A stretch of 64,000 nt of DNA from a virus. This document shows, piece after piece, positions 1 to 59,284 of the stretch. Under the pieces are notes generated by a model. It saw only the letters and a program-made list of their open reading frames with translations, made no database searches and was not told the DNA's origin. Both the position numbers and the translations under genes were made by a program. Positions within the stretch are counted from its first letter, which is position 1; each line of letters begins with the position of its first letter. The stretch is taken from IMG/VR virus record IMGVR_UViG_3300018890_000002, positions 1 to 64,000 of that record, one strand, 5' to 3'.

Positions 1-3000
1 AGATCATCGAATCTAGCTTTACTTTCAGCTTTAGCTATTTCTACTGGATTATTAGACCTTTGAGATTTCAAGTCTAACTCTAAGGATTCTAGTTCAGCTT
101 TAGCTTTAATTACTTGAGGAGCAGTTTCCTTATAAAGACTAACCAATCTAGTAAGTTCAATTCGTTTATTTTTAATATTTTCTTCAGTAGTATTAATATT
201 GAGTTGATTAATCTCTTTGATATAATCAGCTTCTAAGACTAAGCCATATCTCTTTTGTTGTTCAAGAGCATTAGTCTCCATAGTAAGAAGATTAATTCGT
301 TGCTCACTAGCAGCTTTTTCATATCCAATAAGAGTTTCGGTTAAATCCTTATAAGCAGCAGGAGTAACTTTACCTTTCATTTGGTCATAAACGTTCTCAA
401 ATTTCTTAGCTATTTCCTCACTTGTAGCTTCTCCACTTTCTGCTACTGCATTAAGAGATTCTACAAATGCACCAATATTAGACTCAAACTTATTAAGGTC
501 AATTGAGTCTGCTGTAAGAGCTTTTTCTGTCTCTATTCCAATCTCTTTGAGAGCTACTAATATTTCATCTTTGTTTTTACCCGTAACAGCTAACTTCAAC
601 TTTTCTAATTGTTCTGGCTCAAGTTCACTTTCTACCCTACCTAATGTTTTTAACCCTTCAGTGAGGTCTAACGTACCTTCTAAAGCGTCTTTAGTAAATT
701 CTTGAACTGCTCCTGTGACAAACTTATTCACACCCTTAAAAGACGCATCTAGAGCATTATTAAAAGTCTGTAAATCCGTTTCAGCTAACCTAAGAGATTT
801 CTTAAGTGAAGTTGAGAAAGTAGTAGCACCAATATCATCTTTTGTAGTAGATAAGAATTGTCTTTTCTTTTCTTGATATTTATCAGATAAAGTAGAGAAA
901 TCAGCTAAGTCTTTTTCTAAGTCTTTAAGGTTTATTAGTTTAAGTTCACCTTCAGAAGCTTCATAACCAGATTTCATTTTATCCGCTAGAGTTTTGAGAT
1001 CTTTAGGAATTTCTACTCCTGCGGTAGTTAAAGCATCTCTAGTCTCTTTAAGATTTAAGACTTGTTCTAGTGAGTATTTCTTACCATCAACTTCTTTACC
1101 TTTAAGAGCATCTTGAATAGACTTAAGGACTGTATCTGGTAATTGGCTAACAGCTTTACCATCTTCATTTACTTTATAAATTTCTCCACCAAGAGACTTA
1201 ATAGAAGCTTTTACACTTAAACTTCCATCTTTTAAATCGGTTAGGAATTGTTTAGACTTAACTGAAGAATCTTTAATAGAAGAGGAATAAATATCTAACC
1301 CTTCACTAATATTCTTATTTAGGCTAGTCTGAGAGCTATCTACTTGACTTTGAAGAGACTTAATTTCTTCTAAAGAGACTTGTTCATTACTAAACTTATT
1401 CTCTCTATCTAATAATAGATTACGAGCTTCATAATATTTAAGTTGGTCATCAAATTGCTTTTTACTTACTTCTATTACTTTTTCACGTCTTGTGATTTCA
1501 GCTTCAAGAATAGATATCTGAGCTTTATCTCTATCGTTTAATTTATCACCTTTACCTTTTAACTCTTCTAGTTCCTTCTTTTGAATCTCTGTCATTGTAG
1601 TGAAAGATTCAATTCTAGTGGTATTAGCAGCTTTCTCACGCTCTAAATCCTCACCAGTAAGAATCATTTTAGCTTTGATCTTTTGGTTAGAAGTTTCAGT
1701 TAATAAGTTACCTTTCTCTAATTCTTTATTTTGTCCTCTGAGACTTATCTCGTACCCTTGAATAAAATCAGATACTTGAGACATTTTCTGAGTTCTTTTG
1801 ATAAACTCTGCGTCTGAAAATCCAGTAAAAATAGCAGAAATTCTCTGTCCAATATTTTGGAAAGCTGAGTCTAATAATTTAAAACCAGGAATATTGTTTA
1901 GGAAAGATTTAGTAGCTTCATCAAGAGAAGTAAGTGATTTGAAAGCATTACCAATAGCACTTCCAATAGACTCAAAGATGCCAGGTTCTAGTTCTCCAAA
2001 TAACTTTTTGGAAGCTTCAATTCTGTCATTAAACTTATTAAGACCTTGAACTCCATTATCAAATGAGATATTGGCTCTATCAAATTTAGTAGCAGAGTCT
2101 TCTAATGTTTTATTGAATTCCTTATATATCTTGTCTACTTTATCTGACTCCCCTTTCATTTGGAAAAGTTTAGTAGTAAGACCAATAACTGCTCCTATGA
2201 GTAAACCAATCCCAGTAGAGATAAAAGCAGCTTTAATTGATTCCCCTAAGAGTTTAGCTCCTATTGCCATTTCTGCAAATTTAGTTTTGGCAACAGTAGA
2301 CATCTCAGTGAAACTTCTACTAGCATTAGTACCTAATTGTCCAATATTACTTCTAAGGTCAATTACTTTATTTCTTAAACCTTCTTGAAGTCCAGTAAGA
2401 GATTCAACTGGTTCTGTAATTCCCTTAAGAGTTTTAGCAATACCTTCATTAGTAGCAATTAAAGCTCTATTGATAGCAGTATTTTTAACAGCTACATTAC
2501 CAGACCTAGTTCTCATCTCAATTAAAGAACCTTCTGCTAAACCCTGCTCTCTAGTTAACTGTCTTAGTTTAGTCCTAGATTCAAAATCAGCTTTATTATA
2601 AGCTTGTTGTGCTGTTTGTTGAGTAGCTCTAGCTTTTTGAAGAGTAGATTGTTGAGTAGCTTCTTGAAACTGTAATTGATTTACTTTAGCTAATTGTTGT
2701 TGATATTCTTTACTATCCTTATTTCTAATTTTGTCTAAAGTAGCTTGTTCATTCCTTAGAGCATTCTGAATTGTATAAAGCTTTTCTTGTTGACCAGTAG
2801 TAGCAATATTAACTCTATCTAAAGTGTTTTTCTTAGTATTTAGATCTTGTTGAAGAACAGCTAAATCAGTAGTAGTTTTAGTAACTCTATTGAGCTTTTC
2901 TTGCTGTTCAACTTTAGCTTTATTTAGTTTCTCAGTTTCTCTATCAACTATATTGTTAGCTTGTTGTAACTTCTGTCTTTGAGTTAAAAGAACTAATTCT

Positions 3001-5447
3001 TCTTGAGTAATTCTAGAAGATAAATTGTCACGAGTATTAGTTAGCTTTCCTTTTTGATCATCAGTTAAAGGAGTTCTATCTTTGTTCTTTTCTCTATCTA
3101 TTAATTGCTTTTCTCTTGCACTTATATTTGATAAAGCTTCTCTATCTCTGTCAGATTTATTAGCTTTATTATTTAGTATTTCTCTCTGTTTTTGTAGAGA
3201 ATTTAGTTGATCAAGAGTAGTTTTGTTATATGTATCTTGAAGTCTTAGTTTCTCAGAGTTTAGATCTTTAAGCTGTTTATGTTCTTCCTTACCAATATTA
3301 CCTTGTTTAATTAAAGATTCTTGAGCAGCTATTTCTTTTAATCTACTAGACCTTTTAATATTTTCTTCATCATCTTTAAGAGAATTAGAAATATCTTGTC
3401 TAAGAGTTTTGAGATTAGCTAAAGTTTTCTGAGTAGAAGATACTTCAGTTTGTTGAGTATTTCTATTATCAGTTTTCTTAGTTAAAGACTCTTGAACTTT
3501 AGTTACTTGCTGTTGACCTTTAATAATAGATTGATCTCTAGCAACAATTGCGTCTATCTCTTTTTGGACAGCAGTAATAGAAGTTAGTCTCTCAGCAGCA
3601 GTTTTACCAATAGAGCTAGTAAGTCTTTTCTCTAATTCAGTAGAACCTTTAATAGCTTCATTAATTCTGTTTTGACTTAAGAGTTTCTGTTGGTCTAATC
3701 CTAATATCTGCTTACCAATAGATAAAAGACCTTGATTAGATTGATAAAGTTCTTTTACTACTGAACCTTCTTTTTTTAAGTCTTTGAAGCCATTAGTTAT
3801 TCCACCTAAGATTAATCCAAATGCTCTAAAGCTAAGAATAGTACCAGTAATACTAATCAACATTTTAGATAAAGCACCAATAGTACCAGTTACTTTATTG
3901 ACATTATCAAAGAAAGTAACCATAGTCTTAGCCATAGTAATTAACGGATCTTTAAATTTAACTAAAGCTTCCTTATACCATTCAATAGACTTTACCCCTT
4001 CTTCACTTCTAGCTTGGAATGCTTTACCAAACGAAATCATAATCTCATCATAAGAGTTAGTGATTTGTTCCATTTTGGCTTGAGAGGAAGACGTAGCAGA
4101 ATCAAAAGCTTCATTAAGATTCTCAGAAGTAACTTTACTAATATCTTCAATTGATTTCTTAGCTAAGTTCCCATTTTGAGCAAGAACCTTCATTACAAAA
4201 CCAAATGCGTTAGTCTCGTTATAAACTTCTTTAATTTTCTCAGTGCTATAACCAACCGATTCAGCAAAATCAACTATACCTTGAACAATTCCCTTATCCT
4301 TAAAATATTCTTGGTTAAGCGTAATTGCTTTACCTTGAGCATCTACTAAACCTTCTAATGCTTTCTGAGCTTCAGGAGTTTTACTAATAGTGTTTCTACT
4401 AAAAGCTTCCATTTGAGTAGTAATTTCTGGAACCTTAGCACCTAACTTAGTAAATGCAACTACTAAACCTTGAGTCTGGTCTACTAGATCATTAGTACCT
4501 ACGCCAGCATTTTTAAGAGCTGAGTACATACCAGTTAAATACTCGGTCATCTCTCCTACAGTAGTTAGACCTTGTTGTTCAGTAGCCAACCATTTAGCAG
4601 TAGTAGTTTCTAATTCCTTAATATTCTTAGTTTCTAGAATTCCAGCTCCTTTACCAATAGCTCCACCAATTTGGAAGAGGTCACTTCCAGGAGCAGCTTT
4701 ATTCGCTTTAATTGCTAGGTTAACTACATCTTGGTTCTCTTGAAACTCAGTAAAACCAGCAGAAGCAGCTTGATATGCAGCATTGAGTGCAGTAAGAGAA
4801 GATACACTATTCTTTAGATTCTTTTCAATACCATTTTGTAGTGCATCTCCATATTCAGTTAGTCTTTCTTTAGATAAACCAAATACAATATTTACTTCAT
4901 TTAACTTCTGCTCAAAAGTGTTGAACGCAGCAATTGATCTAGAAGCAAACATTTCAATAGCTTCTTGATTCCCAGTGAGAACTGCTCCTATCTCATTGAA
5001 AGAGTTCATCAAAGGAGTTCCATCAAAGCCACTAGCAGCCATAACGTTAATCCCCGTTTTAGTCATAGTAAGAGAATCTAATATTTCAGATACTCCTGTT
5101 CCTACTGTTTTGAGGATACCACTACCAATTGTATAAACGTTGAGAGCATTCATAGCTCCACCTAGAAGAGTAGTAGTCTTAACTAACTTACCCATTGAAG
5201 CATTCCAGTTATTAGTCGCAGCAGTAGCTTTCCCATAATCTTTCACTAGGGAGTCAACTACGTTTGACTTAGTTTGGAAGCTCTTAGTTAACTCTTTTAA
5301 ACCCTTACTACTCTCTTTCAAACCAGTATTAAATAGCCTAAGTGATTTCTCGTTAAGCTCTTTAAATGATTTCTGAGTTTTCTCTAAGAATTGAGAGAAC
5401 TTATCATCTCCCTCAACGTTAAACTTAATATTGCTACTGGTATCCAT
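1..5447 (-). CDS. Tail tape measure protein, C-terminus beyond the window
   Basis: An open frame of 1815 codons runs leftward from ATG at 5447 to the window edge without a stop in the stretches I translated. About the first 480 residues resemble the TP901-type tape measure core, with a hydrophobic stretch near residues 95-125. A long coiled-coil rich in K, E, Q and L follows (about 550-1000), then a Gly/Ile-rich membrane-like segment near 1060-1100 (AFISTGIGLLIGAVIGLTT), then more coiled coil to the edge. It lies directly downstream of the G/GT chaperone pair, the standard tape measure position. In the family, this protein sets tail length and is ejected ahead of DNA. At over 1800 residues a long tail is expected. 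Confidence 0.93.
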   Translation of the reverse strand, partial: MDTSSNIKFNVEGDDKFSQFLEKTQKSFKELNEKSLRLFNTGLKESSKGLKELTKSFQTKSNVVDSLVKDYGKATAATNNWNASMGKLVKTTTLLGGAMNALNVYTIGSGILKTVGTGVSEILDSLTMTKTGINVMAASGFDGTPLMNSFNEIGAVLTGNQEAIEMFASRSIAAFNTFEQKLNEVNIVFGLSKERLTEYGDALQNGIEKNLKNSVSSLTALNAAYQAASAGFTEFQENQDVVNLAIKANKAAPGSDLFQIGGAIGKGAGILETKNIKELETTTAKWLATEQQGLTTVGEMTEYLTGMYSALKNAGVGTNDLVDQTQGLVVAFTKLGAKVPEITTQMEAFSRNTISKTPEAQKALEGLVDAQGKAITLNQEYFKDKGIVQGIVDFAESVGYSTEKIKEVYNETNAFGFVMKVLAQNGNLAKKSIEDISKVTSENLNEAFDSATSSSQAKMEQITNSYDEIMISFGKAFQARSEEGVKSIEWYKEALVKFKDPLITMAKTMVTFFDNVNKVTGTIGALSKMLISITGTILSFRAFGLILGGITNGFKDLKKEGSVVKELYQSNQGLLSIGKQILGLDQQKLLSQNRINEAIKGSTELEKRLTSSIGKTAAERLTSITAVQKEIDAIVARDQSIIKGQQQVTKVQESLTKKTDNRNTQQTEVSSTQKTLANLKTLRQDISNSLKDDEENIKRSSRLKEIAAQESLIKQGNIGKEEHKQLKDLNSEKLRLQDTYNKTTLDQLNSLQKQREILNNKANKSDRDREALSNISAREKQLIDREKNKDRTPLTDDQKGKLTNTRDNLSSRITQEELVLLTQRQKLQQANNIVDRETEKLNKAKVEQQEKLNRVTKTTTDLAVLQQDLNTKKNTLDRVNIATTGQQEKLYTIQNALRNEQATLDKIRNKDSKEYQQQLAKVNQLQFQEATQQSTLQKARATQQTAQQAYNKADFESRTKLRQLTREQGLAEGSLIEMRTRSGNVAVKNTAINRALIATNEGIAKTLKGITEPVESLTGLQEGLRNKVIDLRSNIGQLGTNASRSFTEMSTVAKTKFAEMAIGAKLLGESIKAAFISTGIGLLIGAVIGLTTKLFQMKGESDKVDKIYKEFNKTLEDSATKFDRANISFDNGVQGLNKFNDRIEASKKLFGELEPGIFESIGSAIGNAFKSLTSLDEATKSFLNNIPGFKLLDSAFQNIGQRISAIFTGFSDAEFIKRTQKMSQVSDFIQGYEISLRGQNKELEKGNLLTETSNQKIKAKMILTGEDLEREKAANTTRIESFTTMTEIQKKELEELKGKGDKLNDRDKAQISILEAEITRREKVIEVSKKQFDDQLKYYEARNLLLDRENKFSNEQVSLEEIKSLQSQVDSSQTSLNKNISEGLDIYSSSIKDSSVKSKQFLTDLKDGSLSVKASIKSLGGEIYKVNEDGKAVSQLPDTVLKSIQDALKGKEVDGKKYSLEQVLNLKETRDALTTAGVEIPKDLKTLADKMKSGYEASEGELKLINLKDLEKDLADFSTLSDKYQEKKRQFLSTTKDDIGATTFSTSLKKSLRLAETDLQTFNNALDASFKGVNKFVTGAVQEFTKDALEGTLDLTEGLKTLGRVESELEPEQLEKLKLAVTGKNKDEILVALKEIGIETEKALTADSIDLNKFESNIGAFVESLNAVAESGEATSEEIAKKFENVYDQMKGKVTPAAYKDLTETLIGYEKAASEQRINLLTMETNALEQQKRYGLVLEADYIKEINQLNINTTEENIKNKRIELTRLVSLYKETAPQVIKAKAELESLELDLKSQRSNNPVEIAKAESKARFDD

Positions 5448-5449
5448 AA

Positions 5450-6228
5450 TTAATTACTTTCAAATCTAAAATTCATAAAATCATTAGCTGATACTTCTTT
5501 ACCATTAGGGCTTAGTACCATACTAGAATCACCTTTCTCTTTCTTAAACTTCTCACCTAACTCAATAGCAAACTCTCTATTCCTTTCTTCTTGAGGTCTA
5601 TGATGTTCTAATGTCTGACCAATCAGCAAATCAAGAGAAATATTATCTAGTTTCTCCCATAAATCAGTTATAGGATTGATAGGGTATTCCTTATATATCT
5701 CTAATAAAAATGCTAACTGGTCAATTGAACTATCTCCAGATGAAGGAAGAGGAGCGCTTAACTTTTTTCTATTTCCTTCACTAGATTTTCCTTCTTCTCC
5801 TGGTGCTTTTTTACTGACTCTCTTAGATAAAATCCAAAGTCTAATTTATGTAAATCTGCTATTAGTGAAGGTTTCCATCCATCATCTATTTGATATTCAC
5901 CTTTCTCATCCATACTTTGAGTTAGGAATATCTGACAAATCTGCTCTAAATCATCTGCAATTTCTTCTAAGTCAAATCCTTTCTCTTTTTGACCTACAAT
6001 GTTCAAATTAGCAGCTAAAGTCTTTAATATTCCCCAAGTTTCATTGTTCCTAATTAGTTCACCAATATTAGTATCAACATCAATGAATTTAAGTAATATC
6101 TCTTGTTGTAATTGAACTATAATATCTAACTCAGATCTAACTACTCGCTGAACAATATAAACTTTCTCTACCTCATAAGAGTCTTTTTCGCTATTATAAG
6201 ATTGTACTTTGATTTTGAAATTCTTCAT
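5450..6228 (-). CDS. Tail assembly chaperone, frameshifted long form (GT-like)
   Basis: Translation that slips -1 at 5806-5812 gives about 259 residues: 141 shared with the short form plus a 118-residue T domain ending at TAA 5450-5452. The -1 frame has no ATG before its middle and no other plausible start, yet encodes a coherent soluble sequence (for example ITDLWEKLDNISLDLLIGQT), which argues that it is expressed only as a fusion. In siphophages and many myophages the minor GT product recruits tube subunits to the tape measure-chaperone complex. The stop is just upstream of the tape measure ATG (5447). Confidence 0.82.
5758..6228 (-). CDS. Tail assembly chaperone, short form (G-like)
   Basis: 156 residues from ATG 6228; an in-frame TTG at 6246 also exists but has no ribosome binding site. 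It has no strong sequence relative I can name. Its position immediately before the tape measure, its alpha-helical acidic composition and the frameshift overlap with a -1 frame continuation are those of lambda G. It is expected to bind the tape measure during tail assembly and be absent from the virion. It is divergent from the gene starting at 6239, only 10 bases away, so the promoters must lie inside the coding sequences. Confidence 0.8.
   Translation of the reverse strand: MKNFKIKVQSYNSEKDSYEVEKVYIVQRVVRSELDIIVQLQQEILLKFIDVDTNIGELIRNNETWGILKTLAANLNIVGQKEKGFDLEEIADDLEQICQIFLTQSMDEKGEYQIDDGWKPSLIADLHKLDFGFYLRESVKKHQEKKENLVKEIEKS
5806..5812 (-). promoter_or_regulatory. Programmed -1 ribosomal frameshift site A AAA AAG
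   Basis: On the minus strand the zero frame reads GTA AAA AAG CAC, so the heptamer is A AAA AAG in perfect X-XXY-YYZ phase, the same heptamer used by E. coli dnaX. A -1 slip opens the frame that continues to 5450. The zero frame ends 48 nt downstream at TAA 5758-5760. Confidence 0.85.
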
Positions 6229-6238
6229 GGTGATTTTT

Positions 6239-6655
6239 ATGTACAATGATTCTTCTTACTTACCTTCTCATAATATAGCATCTTTACTTTTATATGCTAT
6301 AGCTACTAGATTTTTATTATTCGATTATAAAATTACTGGAATATTATGGAGAGATTTACTCTTATTAGTAAAAGAGAAATATGAGTTATCTACTAAGACT
6401 TCTACTAAAAAAGGAGAACTAATTATCTATTCTCCAGATGTTCCTCCTAATCTCTATTGGTTAGGATTGTATAAGGTACTTGAGAAGTTACTTAATTGTC
6501 CGTTCTGTAAAGGATGTTGGGGAGGCTATATTGTCTATCTCTTATTCGTATTTCAATATCATGGAATAGACTTAAGACAAATAGGAGATTTTGCTATTTT
6601 CTCTTGGTGTTGTGGATGGTTATCTTTTATATCAAATCAAAAATTAGGAGTATAA
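6239..6655 (+). CDS. Small membrane protein, DUF1360-like
   Basis: 138 residues from ATG 6239; an ATG at 6209 in the same frame is possible but would overlap the divergent gene more. A hydrophobic N-terminal helix (about residues 13-30), a CPFCKGCWGG motif near residue 95 and a second hydrophobic segment after it resemble the DUF1360 family of phage and bacterial membrane proteins, which carry a CPWC-x-x-x-W motif at a membrane helix. The function of that family is unknown. It starts a short plus-strand islet inside the leftward tail operon. Confidence 0.5.
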   Translation: MYNDSSYLPSHNIASLLLYAIATRFLLFDYKITGILWRDLLLLVKEKYELSTKTSTKKGELIIYSPDVPPNLYWLGLYKVLEKLLNCPFCKGCWGGYIVYLLFVFQYHGIDLRQIGDFAIFSWCCGWLSFISNQKLGV

Positions 6656-7405: not shown

Positions 7406-7672
7406 ATGAGTCGAGAAGAACTGATTGGTAAAAAATTCTTAAAAGAGATAAATGCAAAAGAGGCAGATTTAATCTTAGAAGCTTTGAAACAATATGGAAA
7501 TGATGAGCTAATAGATAAATGGATTTCTGTAAAAATAATCGCTAGTGAAGCTAGAAAGATGAAAGATAATAACACAATCCTTCCTCCTAGCTATTTTACT
7601 GATAAACAAGACCCGGAAGCTACTCAACGATTGATGAATTTATCTAATGAATTAAGAAATAATAAGGAATAA
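7406..7672 (+). CDS. Small helical protein, unknown
   Basis: 88 residues, mixed charge, predicted mostly helical, no membrane segment. Probably translated by coupling to the 10-codon leader ORF ending at 7400. It sits 4 bases before the beta-repeat protein at 7677 and is likely co-transcribed with it. No family recognised. Confidence 0.65.
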   Translation: MSREELIGKKFLKEINAKEADLILEALKQYGNDELIDKWISVKIIASEARKMKDNNTILPPSYFTDKQDPEATQRLMNLSNELRNNKE

Positions 7673-7676
7673 AATT

Positions 7677-8408
7677 ATGATAGCTAGAAACTTTTCAAAT
7701 ATTCAAGACATTGAACTTACATCTTCTAGTAAAGTGACTATTACTAAGAGTTCTGAATTTAAAGTAAGAGTTTTAGGAGATGATGCAGATAAAGTAGAAA
7801 TCTCACAATCAGGAAGTACACTCACTATTAATGATTTATCAGAAAACCAAAATAGTATCTTAATAAATGGTAACAATATTATTATTGGTAATAACAATAT
7901 AGTTAGTGGAAACTTCTCTTATGGGGATATCTATATTAATGGTAAGAAAGTAAATACTTCTAACTTTGTAGAAGAAGATAAGAACCCAGTAGAGATAGAA
8001 ATTGAATGTCCTGATAATCTTTCTTTAATCGCTACTTTAAGAGGAAATGCAAGTTTAACTTCTACTCCTGAGCTTAATAAAGTCAAGATTCATGGTAATG
8101 GAGTTTGTAACGTTCAAGTCACTGCTCAAAGTGGTAAGTTTAAAGTCTCTGGGTCAGGAGATATTAATTATAAATCTTTAGGAGGAAATCTTAATGCTAG
8201 TATATCTGGTTCTAGTGAAATTAGAGCAATAGGTAAATTTAGTGATATTGATGCTAGTATATCTGGCTCAGGGGAACTAATTACTGAAGGAGAAGTGAAA
8301 GGAGATTATGATGTCAGTGTTTCAGGTTCAGGAACTATTAGACATCAAGGAATGATTTCTGGACAAAGAAGTAAATCTGTCTCTGGTTGTGCTTTAGTCT
8401 ATTGGTAG
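7677..8408 (+). CDS. GIN-domain (DUF2807)-like beta-repeat protein
   Basis: 243 residues. The C-terminal half has repeating strands such as KVSGSGDINYKSLGG, ASISGSSEIRAIGKFSDID and DVSVSGSGTIRHQG, the S-G-S-G-x-I/L turns typical of the GIN/DUF2807 right-handed beta-helix seen in putative surface adhesins. Unlike cellular members it has no signal peptide or membrane anchor, so it is probably a cytoplasmic or virion-associated phage protein. Ribosome binding site AAGGA 9 bases upstream. A GGGAG/CTCCC hairpin at about 8416-8432 follows the stop. Confidence 0.7.
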   Translation: MIARNFSNIQDIELTSSSKVTITKSSEFKVRVLGDDADKVEISQSGSTLTINDLSENQNSILINGNNIIIGNNNIVSGNFSYGDIYINGKKVNTSNFVEEDKNPVEIEIECPDNLSLIATLRGNASLTSTPELNKVKIHGNGVCNVQVTAQSGKFKVSGSGDINYKSLGGNLNASISGSSEIRAIGKFSDIDASISGSGELITEGEVKGDYDVSVSGSGTIRHQGMISGQRSKSVSGCALVYW

Positions 8409-8767
8409 ATGAGAAAGGGGAGAACTAACTCCCTGACTAACTAAACTATTTTGTGTTATTTTTTAGGATTCTAACCACTTTGAATTATAATTAAGAACAT
8501 TATTACTTTTTTTGCTTGATTATTAGTTTATATGCTTAAAATATTTAAAAAAGTAACAAGTTATTCCAGCAGATATCCTACTACTGTTTTTCCTTCTATG
8601 GATTTTCTAGTAGGTTCAGTACAATATTGACTGGTGGGAATGGTACTGTAAGGAGCATAAGTTAGATGTAACGACAGGTAAGAGTTTGAGAGGTAGTAGT
8701 AATAATCCTGTTCCTTCAAATTTCACATTATTCTAGTTATAATAGGTCAAGAAGCTAAGGAGTAAGT
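8409..8767 (+). pseudogene. Gene-poor stretch with coding remnants
   Basis: No intact gene. Around 8600-8740 two frames carry protein-like text that looks like one gene split by a frameshift: ATG 8597 begins MDFLVGSVQY in one frame, and a second frame continues NIDWWEWYCKEHKLD to a TAG near 8735. The first frame meets TGA at the split point. No promoter was identified; AAGGAG for the next gene lies at its right end. Confidence 0.4.
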
Positions 8768-9259
8768 ATGAAGAAAGCAATTAGTTATCTATATTGAGAA
8801 ATTCTACTCAAAGTAAATGAAGAACTCAATAGATTATATAACTCTAAGTATAACGACGATCAAGAGTATAAGGAACCTATTGAGGAGTTTCGATTAAAGT
8901 ATAACGCTCTTAAATTAGATGATGTTGAAAATTTTGATGAGAGTAAATGTGAAGAATTTTATGAAGAAATTAAATATGGAGAATGGGAAGATATTGTAAG
9001 AGATATGATTTCCGAGTTTAGAGATAGTGGAGAACCTATTAATGAAAAAATTGAAGAAGATAGATATTATTGTTATAGAGAAGTAGCTAAACGTATTACT
9101 GGGTTATGTAAAGTGTTTCTAGCCTGGACTTACTATTTTGGAGGAGGTAAATATGGTGAACCTTGGGGAGTGGAATGGATGGATGATTGCTATTTAGTAA
9201 GAGTAAAGGAAGTAGAAGAAGTTAGAGTAGTTAAAATATACGAGAAAGTAGGAGAATAA
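8768..9259 (+). CDS. Acidic protein with in-frame TGA at codon 10
   Basis: The downstream ATG at 9005 opens an 84-residue frame, but the real start is probably ATG 8768: it has a strong AAGGAG ribosome binding site 7 bases upstream and is in frame with 9005. Only one codon, TGA at 8795-8797, interrupts (MKKAISYLY-TGA-EILLKVNEEL). If it is read as Trp, the protein is 163 residues, highly acidic (EFYEEIKYGEWEDIVRDMI). Other Trp residues in the gene use TGG. Alternatives are a nonsense mutation or expression only from 9005. No family recognised. Confidence 0.55.
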
Positions 9260-9261
9260 TA

Positions 9262-9771
9262 ATGACATTAAATATTGAGAGTTACCGTAAAAAATTAAAT
9301 TCTATAGTAGATGAGATATATCACAATCACGAGACAGGACAAAATTATAATAAGTTAGAAAATTTAGCTTTAGGTGATTTTTATGATTTAACTTTTGAGT
9401 TATTGACTCTTTTAGAAAAAAGAAATAGTACCAATACTGATTCTACTAAAAGTAATGTTTCTCGTAGAGCTTATAAAGAATTAGTTAGTAATGGGAAGAA
9501 GATACGAGTAGGTTATGTACTACCTTTTTCTCAAATATTAGAATTTAATAATCCTAGAGATATAGCTAATTATAGTTCTTTTACTAAAAATCTCAATGTC
9601 TATTATCCTGAATTTTATGTAGAAGATTTTAGTGATAATGGATGTGTCTTTAATTTATTTAAGCCAAGTAATGACATTATAGAAATAGTAGATAAGACTA
9701 AACATAGCTATTGTGTTACTGGTTTTTTAATTGAGGATGGTAGAGCTATCTATTACGATCAGTATTTATAA
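9262..9771 (+). CDS. Y-Y-D-Q-Y module protein
   Basis: 169 residues; starts 3 bases after the previous stop. The C-terminus (VTGFLIEDGRAIYYDQYL) is the same module that ends several proteins of the tandem family at 39.5-41.2 kb, so this is a distant copy. The N-terminal half is helical and unrelated to those. A bidirectional terminator follows at 9843. Function unknown. Confidence 0.7.
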   Translation: MTLNIESYRKKLNSIVDEIYHNHETGQNYNKLENLALGDFYDLTFELLTLLEKRNSTNTDSTKSNVSRRAYKELVSNGKKIRVGYVLPFSQILEFNNPRDIANYSSFTKNLNVYYPEFYVEDFSDNGCVFNLFKPSNDIIEIVDKTKHSYCVTGFLIEDGRAIYYDQYL

Positions 9772-9888: not shown

Positions 9889-10650
9889 TTAGCAGCTAAC
9901 TTTATCCGAACTTTTAATCAAAGTAAACGGTTGACATCCACCAGAGTTATAAAGCTTCAACTGTAAATCAAAAGACTCAGCAGAGAAATCAATAGAGCCA
10001 CCAGCAGCACTAGGTTTAGCATTAGGAGCATGGAAGAACCAAACGTAACCTTCACTATCAATAATTGTTGCTACTACTTCATGTCTACCAATTAGTTCAC
10101 TTCCAATTCCAAGTCCAGTGACAGTATAAGGAATGAGCATTGATACGGTTTCTTTAGCAGCTACTAGAGCAGAACTAAAAGTAACTTGTCCACCAGCACC
10201 AATAGTAAAATCAGTACCTTCAGTTAGAGCTTGAGATAATCCATCAGCTCTTTTTATTGACGCAATTGCATCTGATCCATTAATCACTGCATGACCGAGA
10301 GAAGGAGCTTGAACAGCGGGGAAAGTACCACCATTAGCCAAGTCAAAGAAAGTAGGGAGATAAAGTTCTTTAGTAGTAGTTTCAAAATAATTACCCAATC
10401 TAAATTGTAGTAACTCAGGTTGAACAACACCGTAAGAGATATTAAGTACCGGATTTTCTGCATCAATGAAAGAAGCTACTTCTACTCGTCTACCTAATTT
10501 ATTGCGACCCATAAGAACACGTTCATTCTTACCAGGTTCTACTACCATATTCATCGGAGTAGGCAAATGATAAACCAAATTATCGCTCACTCTCCTCATT
10601 TTTAATTCACCAACACCAATAAAGGTTGATTGATATTTTTCAATTGTCAT
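9889..10650 (-). CDS. Major tail tube protein candidate
   Basis: 253 residues, beta-rich, low charge, with internal Ig-like or decoration-like strands (TDFTIGAGGQVTFSSALVAA). The assignment is positional: it lies between the tail completion genes and, after the plus-strand islet, the G/GT chaperones and tape measure, where the tube gene sits in most long-tailed phages. The sequence itself is not diagnostic. The segment ASIKRADGLSQALTEGTDFTI resembles domains found at the C-terminus of tube proteins. Confidence 0.55.
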   Translation of the reverse strand: MTIEKYQSTFIGVGELKMRRVSDNLVYHLPTPMNMVVEPGKNERVLMGRNKLGRRVEVASFIDAENPVLNISYGVVQPELLQFRLGNYFETTTKELYLPTFFDLANGGTFPAVQAPSLGHAVINGSDAIASIKRADGLSQALTEGTDFTIGAGGQVTFSSALVAAKETVSMLIPYTVTGLGIGSELIGRHEVVATIIDSEGYVWFFHAPNAKPSAAGGSIDFSAESFDLQLKLYNSGGCQPFTLIKSSDKVSC

Positions 10651-10691
10651 AGTATTAATTTATTTTTTTTATTTTATAGAAGGATTATGTC

Positions 10692-11057
10692 TTATGCGTT
10701 CTTTCTTACATCACCAATAGCAGTGAGGAAAGAATCTAGGTCAATTTGTTGAGTGCTTACTCTAGTTACGGTACTTACATTAGTTGCATCTGAGTCAGCG
10801 GGAGAATCAGGAGCAGTAGGAGGGAAAGTAAGTTCAGTAAAATCTAATCGCATTGAAGTTCCTGCTAATACAGGATTAATCTTAATACGTTTAAGGACTT
10901 TAGTAACTGTTGAAGCATCATCTTTAGTAATAGTATATTTTACATCTACCACATAAAGATTATTTGTAGTATCTTCTACTAGAGTTGCGGTTACAGGAAC
11001 AGCTTCAGTTAAAGTCGTTTGTAACTTTGGTCTATTAAAATTAATTGTTATTGCCAT
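10692..11057 (-). CDS. Small virion or tail protein, unknown
   Basis: 121 residues from ATG 11057 (MAITINFNRPKLQTTL); a longer frame begins upstream but overlaps the preceding gene. Beta-rich with a Pro/Ser/Asp-rich linker (PPTAPDSPADSDA). It sits between the tail terminator candidate and the tail tube candidate. No family recognised; a small tail protein is likely. Confidence 0.6.
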   Translation of the reverse strand: MAITINFNRPKLQTTLTEAVPVTATLVEDTTNNLYVVDVKYTITKDDASTVTKVLKRIKINPVLAGTSMRLDFTELTFPPTAPDSPADSDATNVSTVTRVSTQQIDLDSFLTAIGDVRKNA

Positions 11058-27423: not shown

Positions 27424-27855
27424 TTATTTACGTTTTCGTCCTTTATCAGACCTCATTTTACGAAGTTTGCTACCTAGTTTTTTAACTAATAGATTTGCAT
27501 TTATTCTATCTTGAACAGTTTTAGGTTTACGATTTCGTAATGCTCTAGTTGCAGCATAACCTAATCCACCAGCAACAGCTAGACCTAAACCAGTCTTTAT
27601 AGGATTAAAACGAGCAGTTCTCGCAACACCTTGTATTGCTTTACTTACTTTAAGTCCTAGTTTATTTTTACCTTTACCAGGAGTTGCTGCATTAGCTCTA
27701 GTAGGAGTTCTAGAATTAGCATTAGAAGTTTTAGGTAGAGATTCAGACTCAGAAGATTTAGGATTAACTACTTTACTCTGATCTTCCTTATTAGGGAAGT
27801 AGGATAATTTACCTTTATTTGGGTCTATTCTTCGTTCAAAGTTAATAAAATTCAT
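27424..27855 (-). CDS. Basic head-region protein with Gly/Ala helix
   Basis: 143 residues, very basic. N-terminus MNFINFERRIDPNKGK resembles the hydrophobic tag plus basic linker of the 17-19 kb proteins. One Gly/Ala hydrophobic segment (GLGLAVAGGLGYAATRAL) then a basic tail (RKMRSDKGRKRK). The C-terminal layout matches the next gene upstream (R-x-K-P-K-T/S-V/L-Q-D-R), so the two are paralogues. Probably packaged in the head with DNA. Confidence 0.6.
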   Translation of the reverse strand: MNFINFERRIDPNKGKLSYFPNKEDQSKVVNPKSSESESLPKTSNANSRTPTRANAATPGKGKNKLGLKVSKAIQGVARTARFNPIKTGLGLAVAGGLGYAATRALRNRKPKTVQDRINANLLVKKLGSKLRKMRSDKGRKRK

Positions 27856-27860
27856 ATTTA

Positions 27861-28208
27861 TTACCTAAACATTTTAGAAGCTTGACTCAACATAGAATTT
27901 TTCTTTGCTGCACCTTTAAGTCGATCTTGAAGAGATTTAGGCTTCTTCATTGCTTTCATTCCGGCCATTCCTAATCCACCAGCAGCAGCTAATGCACCAA
28001 GAGCTAAACCCGCTTTTCCTTTATTTGCACCAATTGCGCCAACTGCTCTACCTACTCTCGCCCCCGCTTGACGTGCAGCATTTTGGACTTTGTAGTTTTT
28101 AGTAACAGCATCTCCAGAAAGTTTAATTGCTCCACCTGGAACAGCAGCTCCTTTCTTTTGAGCTACCGCGGATACTGAATATTTACCTGTGTTTGTTCGT
28201 CTTGCCAT
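27861..28208 (-). CDS. Basic head-region protein, paralogue of 27424-27855
   Basis: 115 residues from ATG 28208 (MARRTNTGKYSVSAVAQKK); the longer open frame starts inside the protease gene. Basic N-terminus, Gly/Ala segment (LALGALAAAGGLGMAGMKAM), then the shared K-K-P-K-S-L-Q-D-R-L-K-G box. No Cys or Trp. A small internal head protein that binds DNA or lines the membrane on ejection is plausible. Confidence 0.6.
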   Translation of the reverse strand: MARRTNTGKYSVSAVAQKKGAAVPGGAIKLSGDAVTKNYKVQNAARQAGARVGRAVGAIGANKGKAGLALGALAAAGGLGMAGMKAMKKPKSLQDRLKGAAKKNSMLSQASKMFR

Positions 28209-28215
28209 AATTTTT

Positions 28216-29205
28216 TTATTTTTTATATTGTGTAAATTGAATTCGCTTAGAAGCGTTGCTAAACGCAATTAATTCTGAAGAAAACCCATAAGTTCTAGTT
28301 TTAGGTATTCCTGGTCTTTGTTGAGCAACTGGAGCTTGAGGAGCCACAGGTTGTTCAGGAGGAGCAAGAAACATTTCTGCTAATCTTGCACTTAAATCAT
28401 CAATAGCGCTTTGAATCACTTCCGAAGCATCTTGGATTCCCATTGAAGCCATTTCTTCTTCATCTATTTCATTAGCACTTTCTACTACTTCTAGAAAAGC
28501 AGTAAAGACTTTCATTGCTTCTTCTCTTTGTTCTTCTATACTTTGAGAGCTGTTAAGAGCTTCTTCTAGTGATAGAGCATAATTACTTTCATTTAATCCT
28601 TTAGCAACTAAGAGATTTTTATTTTTTACTTTTTTCATGTTAGGGATAGATTCGTAAGAACTCCTCTTAGGAGATTTACTTCCATAATAACTAAAAAGTG
28701 TAGCATTTGGAATCGCAGGTAAAGCAACTAAAGATAATTCCTTAATAGAGAAAGAGTCTAAATCTATTCCAGCCGAAACTGTTTTAGCTAATCCTCTCTT
28801 CATCCTATCAATAATTTCAGGAGTTTTAATAACTACATCTTTTACGAATACTCCTACTCTTCCTAATAAGTGTTTTAGTTTAGGATTACCTTTAGTATAA
28901 ACCTCATCTATTACTCTAGCTTCAACAGGAGATTCAATAAATCCTACCACATTATTAACATCTTTTTTATGTTCAGTTAATACAGGAATACCAACTTCTG
29001 ACATATTGAAGTGTTTATTAGTATTTTCTACTAATCTATAAATCTTATCAGGTGAGAAATCATGAGATACTTTTCTACTATCTACATGAGGAGAATTCTC
29101 TAATGTTGAGTAAAATATTAAACCTTCTTTAGTTAACGAATTTGGATCATTATTCTCTACTTCTTTTAATGGAGTAGGAATAGTATTAAAATGGATAATT
29201 GTCAT
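28216..29205 (-). CDS. Prohead protease with scaffold-like C-terminus
   Basis: 329 residues. The first about 180 show the S78-type prohead protease order: PVLTEHKKDVNNVVGFIE (His), KTVSAGIDLDSF (Ser), and IKELSLVALPAIPNA (acidic residue plus the conserved P-A-x-P-N-A). The remaining residues are acidic, helical, then Pro/Gln-rich (PPEQPVAPQAPVAQQ), like a fused scaffold. Starts in an ATGA overlap with the Gly-zipper gene upstream. Confidence 0.7.
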   Translation of the reverse strand: MTIIHFNTIPTPLKEVENNDPNSLTKEGLIFYSTLENSPHVDSRKVSHDFSPDKIYRLVENTNKHFNMSEVGIPVLTEHKKDVNNVVGFIESPVEARVIDEVYTKGNPKLKHLLGRVGVFVKDVVIKTPEIIDRMKRGLAKTVSAGIDLDSFSIKELSLVALPAIPNATLFSYYGSKSPKRSSYESIPNMKKVKNKNLLVAKGLNESNYALSLEEALNSSQSIEEQREEAMKVFTAFLEVVESANEIDEEEMASMGIQDASEVIQSAIDDLSARLAEMFLAPPEQPVAPQAPVAQQRPGIPKTRTYGFSSELIAFSNASKRIQFTQYKK

Positions 29206-36386: not shown

Positions 36387-36458
36387 AAGTCCATAGTTTA
36401 GTAGATAGAATACGGAACTTCTAATTCCATGACCTCAGTGCGATTCTGAGTGGACTTA
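36387..36458 (+). tRNA. tRNA-Arg (anticodon UCU)
   Basis: A full cloverleaf. Acceptor AAGTCCA/TGGACTT (7 bp), D stem GTTT/GAAT, anticodon stem GGAA/TTCC with 7-base loop CTTCTAA (anticodon TCT at 36420-36422), T stem CTCAG/CTGAG with loop TGCGATT, discriminator A. CCA is not encoded. The T loop has G instead of the usual T at its second position. AGA is the favoured Arg codon of this AT-rich genome, so the tRNA probably supports late gene translation. Hairpins TTGGT/ACCAA and AAGGGA/TCCCTT precede it at 36329-36385. Confidence 0.85.
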
Positions 36459-37165: not shown

Positions 37166-38950
37166 CTAAAAACAATATCCTAAAACTTTCTTGCCTTCTA
37201 TTTTTCTAGAAGTCTCAGAACCAGGAATATATTTGAGAACATCTAACCCTTTAGCTTTTTTATCTAACCTTAAGCTGATATAAATTTCGGCTAAGATATT
37301 TTTGCAATCGTTCATACTATAAAAAGTATTTTTCTCAAAAGTCTTTTCTAATTTATCTTTAATAACGTTTTGAACTTCTTGGCATTGAGCATATATCTCA
37401 TTATTAATTTTTTTCTTAACGTATTTTAAAGACCTAATACGAGAGATACCTAGAATTTCTACTGCTTTCTTGATTGAGTTATCAAGACTATTAATCTCAG
37501 CTAAAGTTTCTAAGTCCAATTCACTCAATTCTTCTTTAGACATAATTTCAACATACTGCTTGAGCATTGCTTGGTAACTAATGCTAGTAGTATTATATAA
37601 GAAATCATCTTCGATCTTTTCATATTCCTGATTACCCTCAAGAGTAAAACCCGCATCAATATATCCTTGTCTAATACTTAATCCACTACTATAAATGCCG
37701 TGAATAACCTCATAGTTAAATTCTTCGTTTAGCTTTTTAAGTTCGTTGAATTCAATAGTATTGGTTTCTGAATTGTACTGAATATAAAAATCATCTAAAT
37801 CTAATTGATATAGTTTTTTATAAGCTTCTTTCTCTAAATCCTCCATTTTATTATTAAACATATTAATGTGAACAAGAGTATCTTTAACTTTATTCTCTAC
37901 TGTATTTTGGAATTCTTTTTCATCTAGTTCATATACTCCAGTGTTGTAGATATGGAAGATAGTATCTTTAAATGGATTATTAATGTTTCGTATCCTACCT
38001 GCAATTTGAGTAATATCTGTGGAGATGTCTAGTAGAGTATGTTTTTTACTAACTCCACTTACTACATAGATCACTCCACTATCTGAATAGAAATCAACTC
38101 CAAGGAAAGACTTAGATGTTACGAACGTGAATGGTTTATTTGGATCATGTACCTTGCTAATACCAAAATCTTCTAAGAGATACTTATTTCTATCACTTTC
38201 ACCACAGATGATTTTTACTTCATCAGGAGTTAGATTAGCATTATCTAAGATATCTTTAATAATACGAACAGAGTTAACAAAAAAATAAGCTTCATGACTA
38301 ATGTGGTTTCCTATTTTTAGTTGATAGCCATTAGCTTTATATTTAGCGATAATTTTTACTACATTAGCAAAGGGAGTATTAGTCTTCTTTCTATGTAGTT
38401 TAATTTGTCTAGTTACCCATTTAACTTCTGTGTAATCTAAGTCAGCTAATATCTTAGGAGTAAACTTTGGCTTAATAGGTGTGGCGGATAGATACGTTAC
38501 ATAGTTGAACTTACTAGATTCTTCTAATAAAGTATCAATAGCTTTATCTCGGTATGAGTAGTCACTAAGTATTTTATGATACTCATCAACTAAGAGTTTG
38601 TATTCAGTATAAGCGTCTATCTCTAATGCCTTTAACCAATTAACTGTTTTGTGCAATGAGTTATAAGTGGTAAATATTTTAATATTCGATTGATTTGCTT
38701 TAATTTGTTTAGCAAAAGTTTTATAATCCATATCTCCGTATACCCCAATAATTTGAGTGTTCTGACTCATTTTGTTACTGATAATCTCAATAGTGGGAAC
38801 AGCTACAATATATGGATCAAGAGATACGGTAGCTAGAAAAGTACCTCCTACTCCAGTAGCTCCTTTGTTGAATATACCTTGAGGTAACTCCGACATGAAC
38901 TCACTGAGATAGATGGCGGGGGCTGGCGCTTCGATTGTGTGAATAGTCAT
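37166..38950 (-). CDS. SF2 helicase-like protein with lysine-less Walker A, copy 1
   Basis: 594 residues from ATG 38950. An earlier ATG at 38992 overlaps the likely -10 box, and the paralogue aligns from 38950. Motif I is FNKGATGVGGTFLA (GxTGVGGT, no catalytic Lys), motif II LLVDEYHKIL, motif III TYLSATPIKPK, motif V SKSFLGVDFYS, motif VI QIAGRIRN. A C-terminal domain (about 470-594, with IKKAVEILGISRIRSLKY and LDKKAKGLDVLKYI) is shared with 57500-59284 and with the GIY-YIG protein at 53467. ATP use is uncertain because the P-loop Lys is missing. Possibly a replication initiation or origin-melting protein. Confidence 0.7.
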   Translation of the reverse strand: MTIHTIEAPAPAIYLSEFMSELPQGIFNKGATGVGGTFLATVSLDPYIVAVPTIEIISNKMSQNTQIIGVYGDMDYKTFAKQIKANQSNIKIFTTYNSLHKTVNWLKALEIDAYTEYKLLVDEYHKILSDYSYRDKAIDTLLEESSKFNYVTYLSATPIKPKFTPKILADLDYTEVKWVTRQIKLHRKKTNTPFANVVKIIAKYKANGYQLKIGNHISHEAYFFVNSVRIIKDILDNANLTPDEVKIICGESDRNKYLLEDFGISKVHDPNKPFTFVTSKSFLGVDFYSDSGVIYVVSGVSKKHTLLDISTDITQIAGRIRNINNPFKDTIFHIYNTGVYELDEKEFQNTVENKVKDTLVHINMFNNKMEDLEKEAYKKLYQLDLDDFYIQYNSETNTIEFNELKKLNEEFNYEVIHGIYSSGLSIRQGYIDAGFTLEGNQEYEKIEDDFLYNTTSISYQAMLKQYVEIMSKEELSELDLETLAEINSLDNSIKKAVEILGISRIRSLKYVKKKINNEIYAQCQEVQNVIKDKLEKTFEKNTFYSMNDCKNILAEIYISLRLDKKAKGLDVLKYIPGSETSRKIEGKKVLGYCF

Positions 38951-39312
38951 AAATTTTGAGAGGGAATATATTTTAGTTGTGTCTACTATCATTATAGCTC
39001 GAATACTACAAAAAATCTTCTCTCTGATAAATTAGAGAATAAAAAATTCAGTTTAGGAATATAAAAAGCTACTATGTAAACTAAAAATTATTCACTTCGA
39101 TTATGAAAAATAAGTTGTGGATTTTTTAAATTATGTATTATTGTTAATGCTCATTTTTGAAAATTAGTCCACAGTTTGAAAATATTTATTTAGTAGAATA
39201 ATAGGTTAATGTCCAGTAGGATAATCTGAGAAATTGCAACTATTAATTACGGTAGCATTGTTACTTCTTATCTAGTTGTGATATAATGAGCTAAATAACT
39301 TAGGAGATTAGT
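38951..39312. promoter_or_regulatory. Divergent promoter region
   Basis: AT-rich spacer of about 360 bases between divergent genes, with no ORF I can support. Leftward: TATAAT at 38996-38991. Rightward: TTGTTA 39258-39263, 18-base spacer, TATAAT 39282-39287 with a TTGTGA stretch just before it, about 25 bases ahead of GTG 39313. Confidence 0.55.
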
Positions 39313-53466: not shown

Positions 53467-54219
53467 TTAGATATTACAAGAGATAACTTTTAGCTTTGTT
53501 ATAGTGCGTCCATCAATTTTTTTATTGTGATCTTTTATCGTGTACCAATAAGCTAGATCACTTGCTTTTGCAACTTTTTTAATATTTAATATCCTGTAAA
53601 TTTCTTGTAATTTTTTCTTAATTACTGACTTATCAAGTAATTGTTCTGGCTCTAAATTAAGCATATTCATAATTTCGCTACCTAAGTTAATTAAACCTTC
53701 ATCTATTCCTATTTGATTTTTAATAAGTTTTTCAGAAAACTGCAAAGCTCTCATTTTATCAAAACCTAATTTTTCATGAGCTTCCTTAATTAAAGGATGT
53801 ATTTTAGAGATAGAAATTCTATTTTCTGGATTATTTACATACTCTGCACAACATTTTTTAAAACTACTATTAATTTTGACATCGTTGACTTTATTTTTAT
53901 TATTTGTAATGGTTACATCTGCCTTTAATACTTTTTCTTTTTTAGGTAAATCTATTTGGATTGTAGGTTTAATATCTCTAAAAACACGGTCTTTATTATA
54001 AATAGGTTTATGAAGATTTATACAGTAAAGTTCAATAATATCTCTATCTACTTCATTTTTAATAATCATATATTCAACATAGTAAATGTACTCTTTCCAT
54101 TCTTGTGCTTCCGATAAATGCTGATAGAGACGATTTTTTAGGTTGTAGGTTTTTCCTATATTAGGTTTTTCTATCTTTTTTAAATTTTTACCTACTAGAA
54201 TTTTGGGGAGGATACTAAC
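53467..54219 (-). pseudogene. GIY-YIG nuclease fused to the helicase C-terminal domain, N-terminus damaged
   Basis: ATG 54069 gives 200 residues, but the frame is open to 54219 and the upstream part is protein-like: KKIEKPNIGKTYNLKNRLYQ, then WKEYIYYVEY, IIELYCINLHKPIYNKD. These are GIY-YIG elements (I-G-K-T-x-N-L-x-x-R-L, E-L-x-x-I-N-x-x-K-P-x-Y-N), but the first G-Y-I-Y strand is missing, a TAG lies at 54222-54220 and no ATG precedes. The C-terminal 130 residues (PLIKEAHEKLGFDKMRALQF, KKVAKASDLAYWYTI) match the C-terminal domain of the helicase-like proteins. Either an unusual start or a truncated homing nuclease. Confidence 0.6.
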
Positions 54220-57472: not shown

Positions 57473-57499
57473 ACATTTATAGTTTAAAATGTGTCAACC

Positions 57500-59284
57500 A
57501 TGAAATATCAGATTCAAGCTCCAAGTAATGCTCTTTATGTTAGTGATTTCCTAAGTGAAATTCCTAAAGGGATAATTGACAAAGCAGCGACGGGGGTAGG
57601 TATGAGTTCTATTGCTTTAGAAGATAAATATCCTACTATTATTGCTGTTCCTACTATTGAAGTGATTAGAAACAAAACTGCACAATATCCTAATGACAGA
57701 CGTTCTGAATCTGTTTTCGGGTACTATGCAGGAGTAAAAGATAAAAGCGTAATTGAGTATCTTAATTCTACTGCAATTCCTAAGATTTTAGTAACTTATG
57801 ATAGTTTTTATAAGGTGGCTAAACTAATAGACAAGACTATTTATCGAGTAGTTGTAGATGAATTCAGTGATTTACTAGATGCTTACAGCTACAGAGATAA
57901 AGCTATTGAACATTTACTATCAGCAGTCCAAGATTTTGAGTATGTATCTTACATCTCTGCTACTCCATTAAAAGAAGAGTATTATCCTGAAGCTCTTAAA
58001 GGTTTAGATGAGTATGAAATAGTTTGGCAAGGTTCAGTAAAGATTAAAGTTGAGAGAAAAAAGACAAATAAGCCTTATAAATTAGCTTGTAACATCATTG
58101 AAGCCTATAAAGCAGGAGGAAAAGAGGGGTTATTAATGCCTAATGGTCACTATTCTAAGTCTGCTTACTTTTTTGTTAACTCGGTTAACTCAATTGCAAG
58201 TATTTTAGAAGCTTCAGAATTAGAACCTAGTGAAGTGAGAGTAATTTGTGCTAATAACGAGGTAAACCAGAAAAAATTAGAAAATTATCCCATTGAAACT
58301 GCTTTAGCTCCTGAGAAAAAGTTTAATTTTATTACCAGTACAGCTTTTAAAGGTTGTGATTTCTACTCTGAAAGTGGGGTTACTTACATTATTAGTAACA
58401 CTTCTAACAGCAATACCTTAATTAGTATTGATACTGATGTTAAACAAATTGCAGGAAGGATTCGTAACTCTAATAACCCTTTCAATAACCACATTTACCA
58501 CATCTATAATACTGATAATTCACTTTTATCGGCTGAAGAGTTTGAGAAATTAGTTAAAAAGAAAACAAAAGCTACAGAATCCACTATTTCTCTATTTTAT
58601 AAAGGTAATGAAGAAGAAAGAGAAACTTATTTAGCTAATTACTATTTAAGAGCTAAGTGTAAATTTAGAGATGACGACTATACTTACCTCACTGATGAGA
58701 ATAATATTATCTTTAACCACTATGCGGTATTAAATGATAAGCGTAGATGGGAAGTTAGTAGTAATGTATATAGAGATGGAGTTTCTATTCGAGAAGCTTA
58801 TCTTAAAGCAGGATGTTTTGATATTTCTACTTATCAAGATTTTGAGAAAATAGAGGATAATGGCTTTTTAAATAAGCTTACTAATGGCAGCTTTAAGGAG
58901 TATTGTCTAAAATATATCAACAACACTGAAGAAAGAAGCTATATAGGTGATAGATTTCCAGTAATTAAAGAAGCATTTAGTCGACTAGGTGCTGATAGAA
59001 TGAAAGCTTTAAGTTATAATCCTTCAAGATTTCTATCTGAGATGCAGGTTAATTCAGATTCTACTCAAAACTACATAATTAGAGATTTAGAAAACACACT
59101 TGTAGTAGGACAAGAATACCTTTCAGCAGAAATAAAGGCTATGTTCAATAATATTTATTATGCAGTGGGGATAAAAAAGAAAGCTAAAGCTACTGATATT
59201 GAGGCTTATTGTGACATTGAGAAAAAACAAAGAAGATTTAAAGGTGTTCTTAAAAATGTAATTGAGATTAAAGCTTGGAAATAA
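57500..59284 (+). CDS. SF2 helicase-like protein with lysine-less Walker A, copy 2
   Basis: 594 residues from ATG 57500; GTG 57491 is also possible. Motif I IDKAATGVGMSSIALEDKY (no Lys), motif II VVVDEFSDLL, motif III SYISATPLKEEY, motif V TSTAFKGCDFYS, motif VI QIAGRIRN. It aligns with copy 1 throughout (IPKGIIDKAATGVG and LPQGIFNKGATGVG; IIAVPTIEVIRNK and IVAVPTIEIISNK). Its C-terminal domain (about 465-594) holds FPVIKEAFSRLGADRMKALS and KKKAKATDIEAYCDI. Own promoter and terminator. Probably a DNA-remodelling or replication protein. Confidence 0.7.
   Translation: MKYQIQAPSNALYVSDFLSEIPKGIIDKAATGVGMSSIALEDKYPTIIAVPTIEVIRNKTAQYPNDRRSESVFGYYAGVKDKSVIEYLNSTAIPKILVTYDSFYKVAKLIDKTIYRVVVDEFSDLLDAYSYRDKAIEHLLSAVQDFEYVSYISATPLKEEYYPEALKGLDEYEIVWQGSVKIKVERKKTNKPYKLACNIIEAYKAGGKEGLLMPNGHYSKSAYFFVNSVNSIASILEASELEPSEVRVICANNEVNQKKLENYPIETALAPEKKFNFITSTAFKGCDFYSESGVTYIISNTSNSNTLISIDTDVKQIAGRIRNSNNPFNNHIYHIYNTDNSLLSAEEFEKLVKKKTKATESTISLFYKGNEEERETYLANYYLRAKCKFRDDDYTYLTDENNIIFNHYAVLNDKRRWEVSSNVYRDGVSIREAYLKAGCFDISTYQDFEKIEDNGFLNKLTNGSFKEYCLKYINNTEERSYIGDRFPVIKEAFSRLGADRMKALSYNPSRFLSEMQVNSDSTQNYIIRDLENTLVVGQEYLSAEIKAMFNNIYYAVGIKKKAKATDIEAYCDIEKKQRRFKGVLKNVIEIKAWK

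Follow-up and report, generated by a model that had tools for sequence, protein, structure and literature searches.

The slip sequence of the G/GT frameshift in phage lambda is G GGA AAG, and in Escherichia coli dnaX the shift leads to an early stop and is stimulated by a Shine-Dalgarno sequence and a stem-loop. According to the sections of a review drawn on here (PMC5009743), lambda gpG and gpGT stand at a ratio of about 30:1, the partner of G is the tape measure protein and that of T is the major tail protein, and G/GT frameshifting is widely conserved in long-tailed phages though their sequence similarity is low. The tails of two phages that will concern us below, the Pseudanabaena phages PA-SR01 and Pam2, are long (~300 nm) and non-contractile (PMC10286775, PMC9382816). 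The words "frameshift" and "chaperone" do not occur in the main text of either the PA-SR01 paper (PMC10286775) or the Pam1–Pam5 paper (PMC9382816). The region of interest is deposited for PA-SR01 as QIW88471.1 and the 73-codon QIW88472.1, and for Pam2 as Pam2_27 and Pam2_28, in each case both as "hypothetical protein"; Pam2_28 is a separate 73-codon CDS in the −1 frame.

Here we describe a related locus on the minus strand of the window, the 64,000-nucleotide stretch of viral DNA that was analyzed (IMG/VR record IMGVR_UViG_3300018890_000002, positions 1 to 64,000). Its features are as follows.

5758..6228, minus strand: zero-frame gene, putative G-like tail assembly chaperone (ATG at 6228, 156 aa, TAA at 5760–5758), with homologues

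5806..5812, minus strand: slippery heptamer A AAA AAG, in phase (codons GTA AAA AAG), identical in four of four clade A sequences

5450..5806, minus strand: −1 frame, putative T-like domain (118 codons after the slip, TAA at 5452–5450), recognized by substitution pattern and alignment

5758..5845, minus strand: stretch of 28 codons with both frames open, from just after the last −1 stop to the zero-frame stop

3..5447, minus strand: tail tape measure protein (phrog_1272, E 1.6e-4), the next gene downstream, which runs off the window

With the phase set by the ATG at 6228, GTA AAA AAG forms codons 139–141 of the zero-frame gene (5814–5806, minus strand). Between the heptamer and the zero-frame TAA lie 45 nt, and the TAA ends 48 nt past the heptamer. 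The coding part of the −1 frame spans 5806–5453 (minus strand), and the ATG of the tape measure gene starts at 5447, 2 nt beyond the −1 TAA. The −1 frame has 13 further open codons ahead of the slip, and these contain no ATG, GTG, TTG, or CTG and two ATT codons only; the first internal ATG, GTG, or TTG of the frame is a TTG at codon 60, and ATGs follow at codons 96 and 111. An earlier note on this DNA had read the same arrangement, and we found it right base for base, in coordinates and in counts: an in-phase GT A AAA AAG on the minus strand, a zero frame closed 48 nt later, and a 118-codon −1 frame without its own start that ends beside the tape measure ATG. The note described a −1 frameshift joining two tail chaperones; the frameshift is supported, whereas the "two chaperones" are better described as one gene with G and GT products.

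Some heptamer in a 28-codon overlap is not rare in a genome with a GC content of 0.33: any X XXY YYZ motif fell within the overlap in 28% of 5,000 within-gene codon shuffles. A AAA AAG specifically did so in 3% of 5,000 codon shuffles, and the four in-phase copies (this site included) in the 67 proxy genes of the window (17,442 codons) give an expectation of ~0.006 per 28 codons. For the 102 open −1 codons past the zero-frame stop, base composition gives a probability of ~1.3e-4, and a dinucleotide simulation produced such a stretch in 0 of 20,000 trials. Taken alone, the heptamer is weak to moderate evidence for a frameshift; together with the open −1 frame and its conservation it is strong evidence. 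The decisive evidence is the comparison with relatives.

Three IMG/VR contigs form clade A with the window: 3300027850_000003 (L002, G001), 3300000095_000002 (L006, G004), and 3300018916_000001 (L004, G002). Relative to the window, their zero-frame proteins are 65–77% and their −1 frames 67–83% identical, and all three contigs carry A AAA AAG in phase, 30–45 nt ahead of the zero-frame stop. The −1 frames of the clade are 115–119 aa long and have no ATG, GTG, TTG, or CTG upstream of the slip (4/4). All four members, the window included, keep the open −1 frame and the heptamer, in line with the earlier note, which had proposed looking for homologues that keep both frames. The two lysine codons of the heptamer are invariant, but the same holds for 27 of the 77 remaining degenerate columns with an invariant amino acid, and three runs of identical codons elsewhere in the gene exceed the heptamer run in length. 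No chaperone match was obtained in L005, a short contig, or in L007.

A second A AAA AAG (5768–5762, minus strand) lies in phase with the −1 frame (AGA AAA AAG TTA). It is present in three of the four clade A sequences, G001 having AGA GTA AAA TTA, and a slip there would lead into the third frame. This copy is probably due to chance in lysine-rich sequence.

Among 50,697 phage records, zero-frame matches at E ≤ 1 were limited to PA-SR01 (MT234670.1) and Pam2 (ON014754.1), whose protein shares 30% identity with that of the window (tblastn E 2e-7). The IMG/VR contigs L013–L018 and L029–L032 also belong to this group, clade B. Scans of genome contigs yielded no relative, whether the query was the zero-frame protein or a 6-row alignment, and a viral match in L023 (44% over 38 residues) was dropped as spurious, the ORFs looking unrelated. 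The zero-frame proteins of clades A and B are homologous with an hhalign probability of 97%; their −1 domains, aligned around a YP-N---LW--LD stretch with a probability of 1.6% (E 0.03), are barely comparable.

A AAA AAG was not found in the overlap of any of the 10 clade B records that reach the slip site. Instead, all 10 (L011–L016, L029–L032) have T TTT TTG in phase, within His-Phe-Leu-Pro, at a position ~12 aligned codons upstream of the clade A site. It lies 108–135 nt ahead of the zero-frame stop in the nine records that contain this stop, and 117 nt ahead of it in PA-SR01 and Pam2. L017 and L018 stop short of the slip site and fall outside this count; L027 and L028 share contigs with L015 and L013, respectively, and were counted once. 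Eight of the 10 records have a −1 frame that stays open throughout, and L014 and L016, which end inside this frame, were counted for the heptamer only. A heptamer is present in all 14 records found that reach the site (four with A AAA AAG, 10 with T TTT TTG). A closed −1 frame, or a heptamer lost without compensation, had been named in the earlier note as evidence against frameshifting; clade B showed neither, having the in-phase T TTT TTG in 10/10 records.

In seven distinct sequences among the 10 clade B records (pairwise zero-frame identity 0.51–0.99), CAT TTT TTG never varies and forms the gene's longest stretch of identical codons; of the 66 other degenerate columns with an invariant amino acid, nine keep their codon. 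The conserved block of the clade B −1 frame (LTEPHFPQFQDPVEFEGSD...) begins near the zero-frame stop. The tape measure gene begins ~45 nt past the −1 stop in PA-SR01, Pam2, and L015; in L013 and L029–L032 what was seen downstream is just a similar ATGGCAGC start. The late A AAA AAG of clade A, set against a T TTT TTG ~12 aligned codons upstream in clade B, makes a complete turnover of the frameshift signal within one homologous gene likely.

Substitutions past the overlap bear the mark of a translated −1 frame. Changes at codon positions 1, 2, and 3 of this frame amount to 0.202, 0.131, and 0.390 in clade A (four sequences) and to 0.089, 0.051, and 0.327 in clade B (three sequences: L011, L013, and L015), an excess at third positions that indicates purifying selection on the −1 extension. 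Within the overlap, the −1 codons just past the slip are poorly conserved (amino acid identity 0.51 in clade A and 0.49 in clade B). The zero frame of clade A is somewhat better kept there, at 0.62 versus 0.51 for the −1 frame, and in clade B (three sequences) the constraint falls on the zero frame and not on the −1 frame. Because the −1 codons right after the slip are poorly conserved, the constraint on the −1 frame does not fix the point of entry; the heptamer does. The open −1 frame, the kept heptamers, and the codon-position constraint past the overlap support the lambda G/GT-type arrangement that the earlier note had named.

The strongest rival explanation is that the −1 frame is a separate gene with an internal start, or is reached by re-initiation after the zero-frame stop. 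Some members do offer starts: a TTG at −1 codon 60 in the window, an ATG at codon 34 (G002) or 37 (G004) that would give an 83-aa product, and a GTG upstream of the conserved block in L029–L032 (codon 17 of the stop-to-stop frame in L029, codon 26 in L030–L032); the depositors of PA-SR01 and Pam2 also annotated the 73 codons as a separate CDS. However, these candidates lie at differing places between members, and no ATG, GTG, or TTG precedes the conserved block, KLSAPLPSSG... in clade A and LTEPHFPQFQDPVEFEGSD... in clade B, in the window, G001, L013 (as L028), or L015 (as L027). The heptamer, moreover, is retained in every record reaching it, and we regard an internal start or re-initiation as very unlikely.

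Transcriptional slippage is another possibility: at the six consecutive A of clade A, or the six consecutive T of clade B, some transcripts could gain or lose a base in place of a slip by the ribosome. Runs that support this process are usually about 8–9 long, so that a run of six is below the usual size, and in both clades the run forms an exact in-phase ribosomal heptamer; transcriptional slippage appears very unlikely. One might also suspect an ordinary single gene with an indel from sequencing or assembly, the window being taken from a virus contig of 81,218 bases and homopolymers being error-prone. The two-frame arrangement recurs, however, in all four clade A contigs as well as in clade B, whose members include two separately published phage genomes. 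Sequencing error is excluded because the relatives share this arrangement, and the probability of such an indel is negligible.

The arrangement, its conservation, and the −1 constraint past the overlap are observed, and we consider it highly probable that they reflect a programmed −1 ribosomal frameshift of the lambda G/GT kind with a minority GT-like product and putative chaperone roles. Most ribosomes would stay in the zero frame and produce a G-like tail assembly chaperone of 156 residues. In a minority, the two lysyl-tRNAs that occupy the P and A sites at A AAA AAG would slip back in tandem by one base onto AAA AAA, and these ribosomes would translate 118 further codons, yielding a 259-residue GT-like protein; we infer both the ribosomal nature of the shift and its efficiency. 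G and GT may then coat the tape measure protein, with T recruiting the tail tube protein. The homologous gene of clade B would most likely shift ~12 aligned codons further upstream at T TTT TTG, where tRNA-Phe could re-pair perfectly and tRNA-Leu would move from UUG to UUU with a third-position mismatch or wobble.

The sections of the review drawn on here rank A_AAA_AAG above U-run heptamers in E. coli and make no mention of UUUUUUG (PMC5009743). Because U runs look like weaker sites in these sections, the shift at T TTT TTG is the less certain half of the proposal. We found no convincing RNA stem after the heptamer (z between +1 and about −2, apart from a single z of −3.5 that belongs to a fold of just −0.8 kcal/mol) and, by eye, no well-placed Shine-Dalgarno stimulator upstream. 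The tRNA genes of the window comprise one tRNA-Arg (anticodon tct, 36387–36458) and no tRNA-Lys. Other shift sites are possible because the classic slip motif is missing from most frameshift overlaps in the data of a tool paper, as given in the part of it drawn on here (PMC10885494); in the gene described here a heptamer is present, and it is conserved.

Searches against Pfam and PHROGs gave no match to a chaperone family, the weak hits being unrelated, and a PDB sequence search returned a single irrelevant match (E 0.8). Foldseek with the predicted zero-frame model (mean pLDDT 67.5) gave nothing at E ≤ 0.001 in PDB or BFVD; with this model, two BFVD entries named tail assembly chaperone appeared at E 0.43 and 1.1 amid unrelated rows. 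The best VIA-align score (Z 5.3) was to an unrelated protein, and no known tail chaperone was recognized among the matches listed. For the −1 frame, structure prediction gave a poor model (mean pLDDT 54.1). Clade B hits below the Pfam cut-off (TorS sensor, E 0.0048; Phosducin, E 0.025) and a Microbacterium match to the −1 frame (E 3) were set aside. Because no profile, PDB-sequence, or fold match was found, position and architecture alone identify the putative chaperone, and a chaperone function is suggested by these together with the G/GT rule.

The tape measure gene follows directly in the window, L002, L004, PA-SR01, Pam2, and L015, and after one intervening gene in L006. In L006 an extra gene for a 179-aa lysine-rich protein (10261–10800) lies between the −1 stop and the tape measure; by eye the protein looks like small basic proteins encoded at 27424–28268 of the window. 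A plus-strand ORF (6239–6655, 138 aa from the ATG at 6239, containing CPFCKGCWGGYIVYLLF) and the chaperone gene are arranged head to head, with 10 nt between the ORF and the chaperone start codon. Each of the three clade A relatives has a counterpart of this ORF, similarly placed and oriented; the leader of the chaperone gene therefore lies inside a gene on the opposite strand. Between a candidate tail tube gene (10650–9889) and the chaperone, several plus-strand ORFs (7406–9771) break the minus-strand tail module. The candidate tail tube protein had no match in the phage collection at E ≤ 0.01, and the large terminase matched many phages, all under 60% identity. The tail module of L002 also encodes a helicase-like protein of 595–597 aa (3890–5677) with a look-alike far off in the window (57491–59284); ORFs at 37166–38992 and 53467–54069 look related by eye, which suggests a mobile or duplicated gene.

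The frameshift mechanism itself is already known; the gene family is new, and so is the turnover that both the slip sequence and its position appear to have undergone. The G/GT rule gains a family unrecognized by the Pfam and PHROGs models used, and a corrected reading of the gene beside the tape measure is suggested for PA-SR01, Pam2, and their metagenomic kin. If the turnover is real, the need for a −1 fusion would have survived changes in where the slip occurs and in the slip sequence, and even the loss of clear similarity between the −1 domains; T TTT TTG, made up of Phe and Leu codons, would then function as a shift site in a cyanobacterium. The homologous genes, which differ in their slip sites, offer a natural pair for gauging what cyanobacterial ribosomes accept.

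The libraries searched revealed no sequence similarity between the gene in the window and the known families, and a further difference from lambda G/GT is the slip sequence of the gene, A AAA AAG. This heptamer is identical to that of E. coli dnaX as given in the review sections drawn on (PMC5009743); unlike in dnaX, the shift here extends the protein, and no clear stimulator was found. PA-SR01 and Pam2 resemble the window in their homologous zero-frame protein (30%) and in a −1 frame open towards the tape measure, but differ in having the T TTT TTG heptamer and in being deposited as separate hypothetical proteins.
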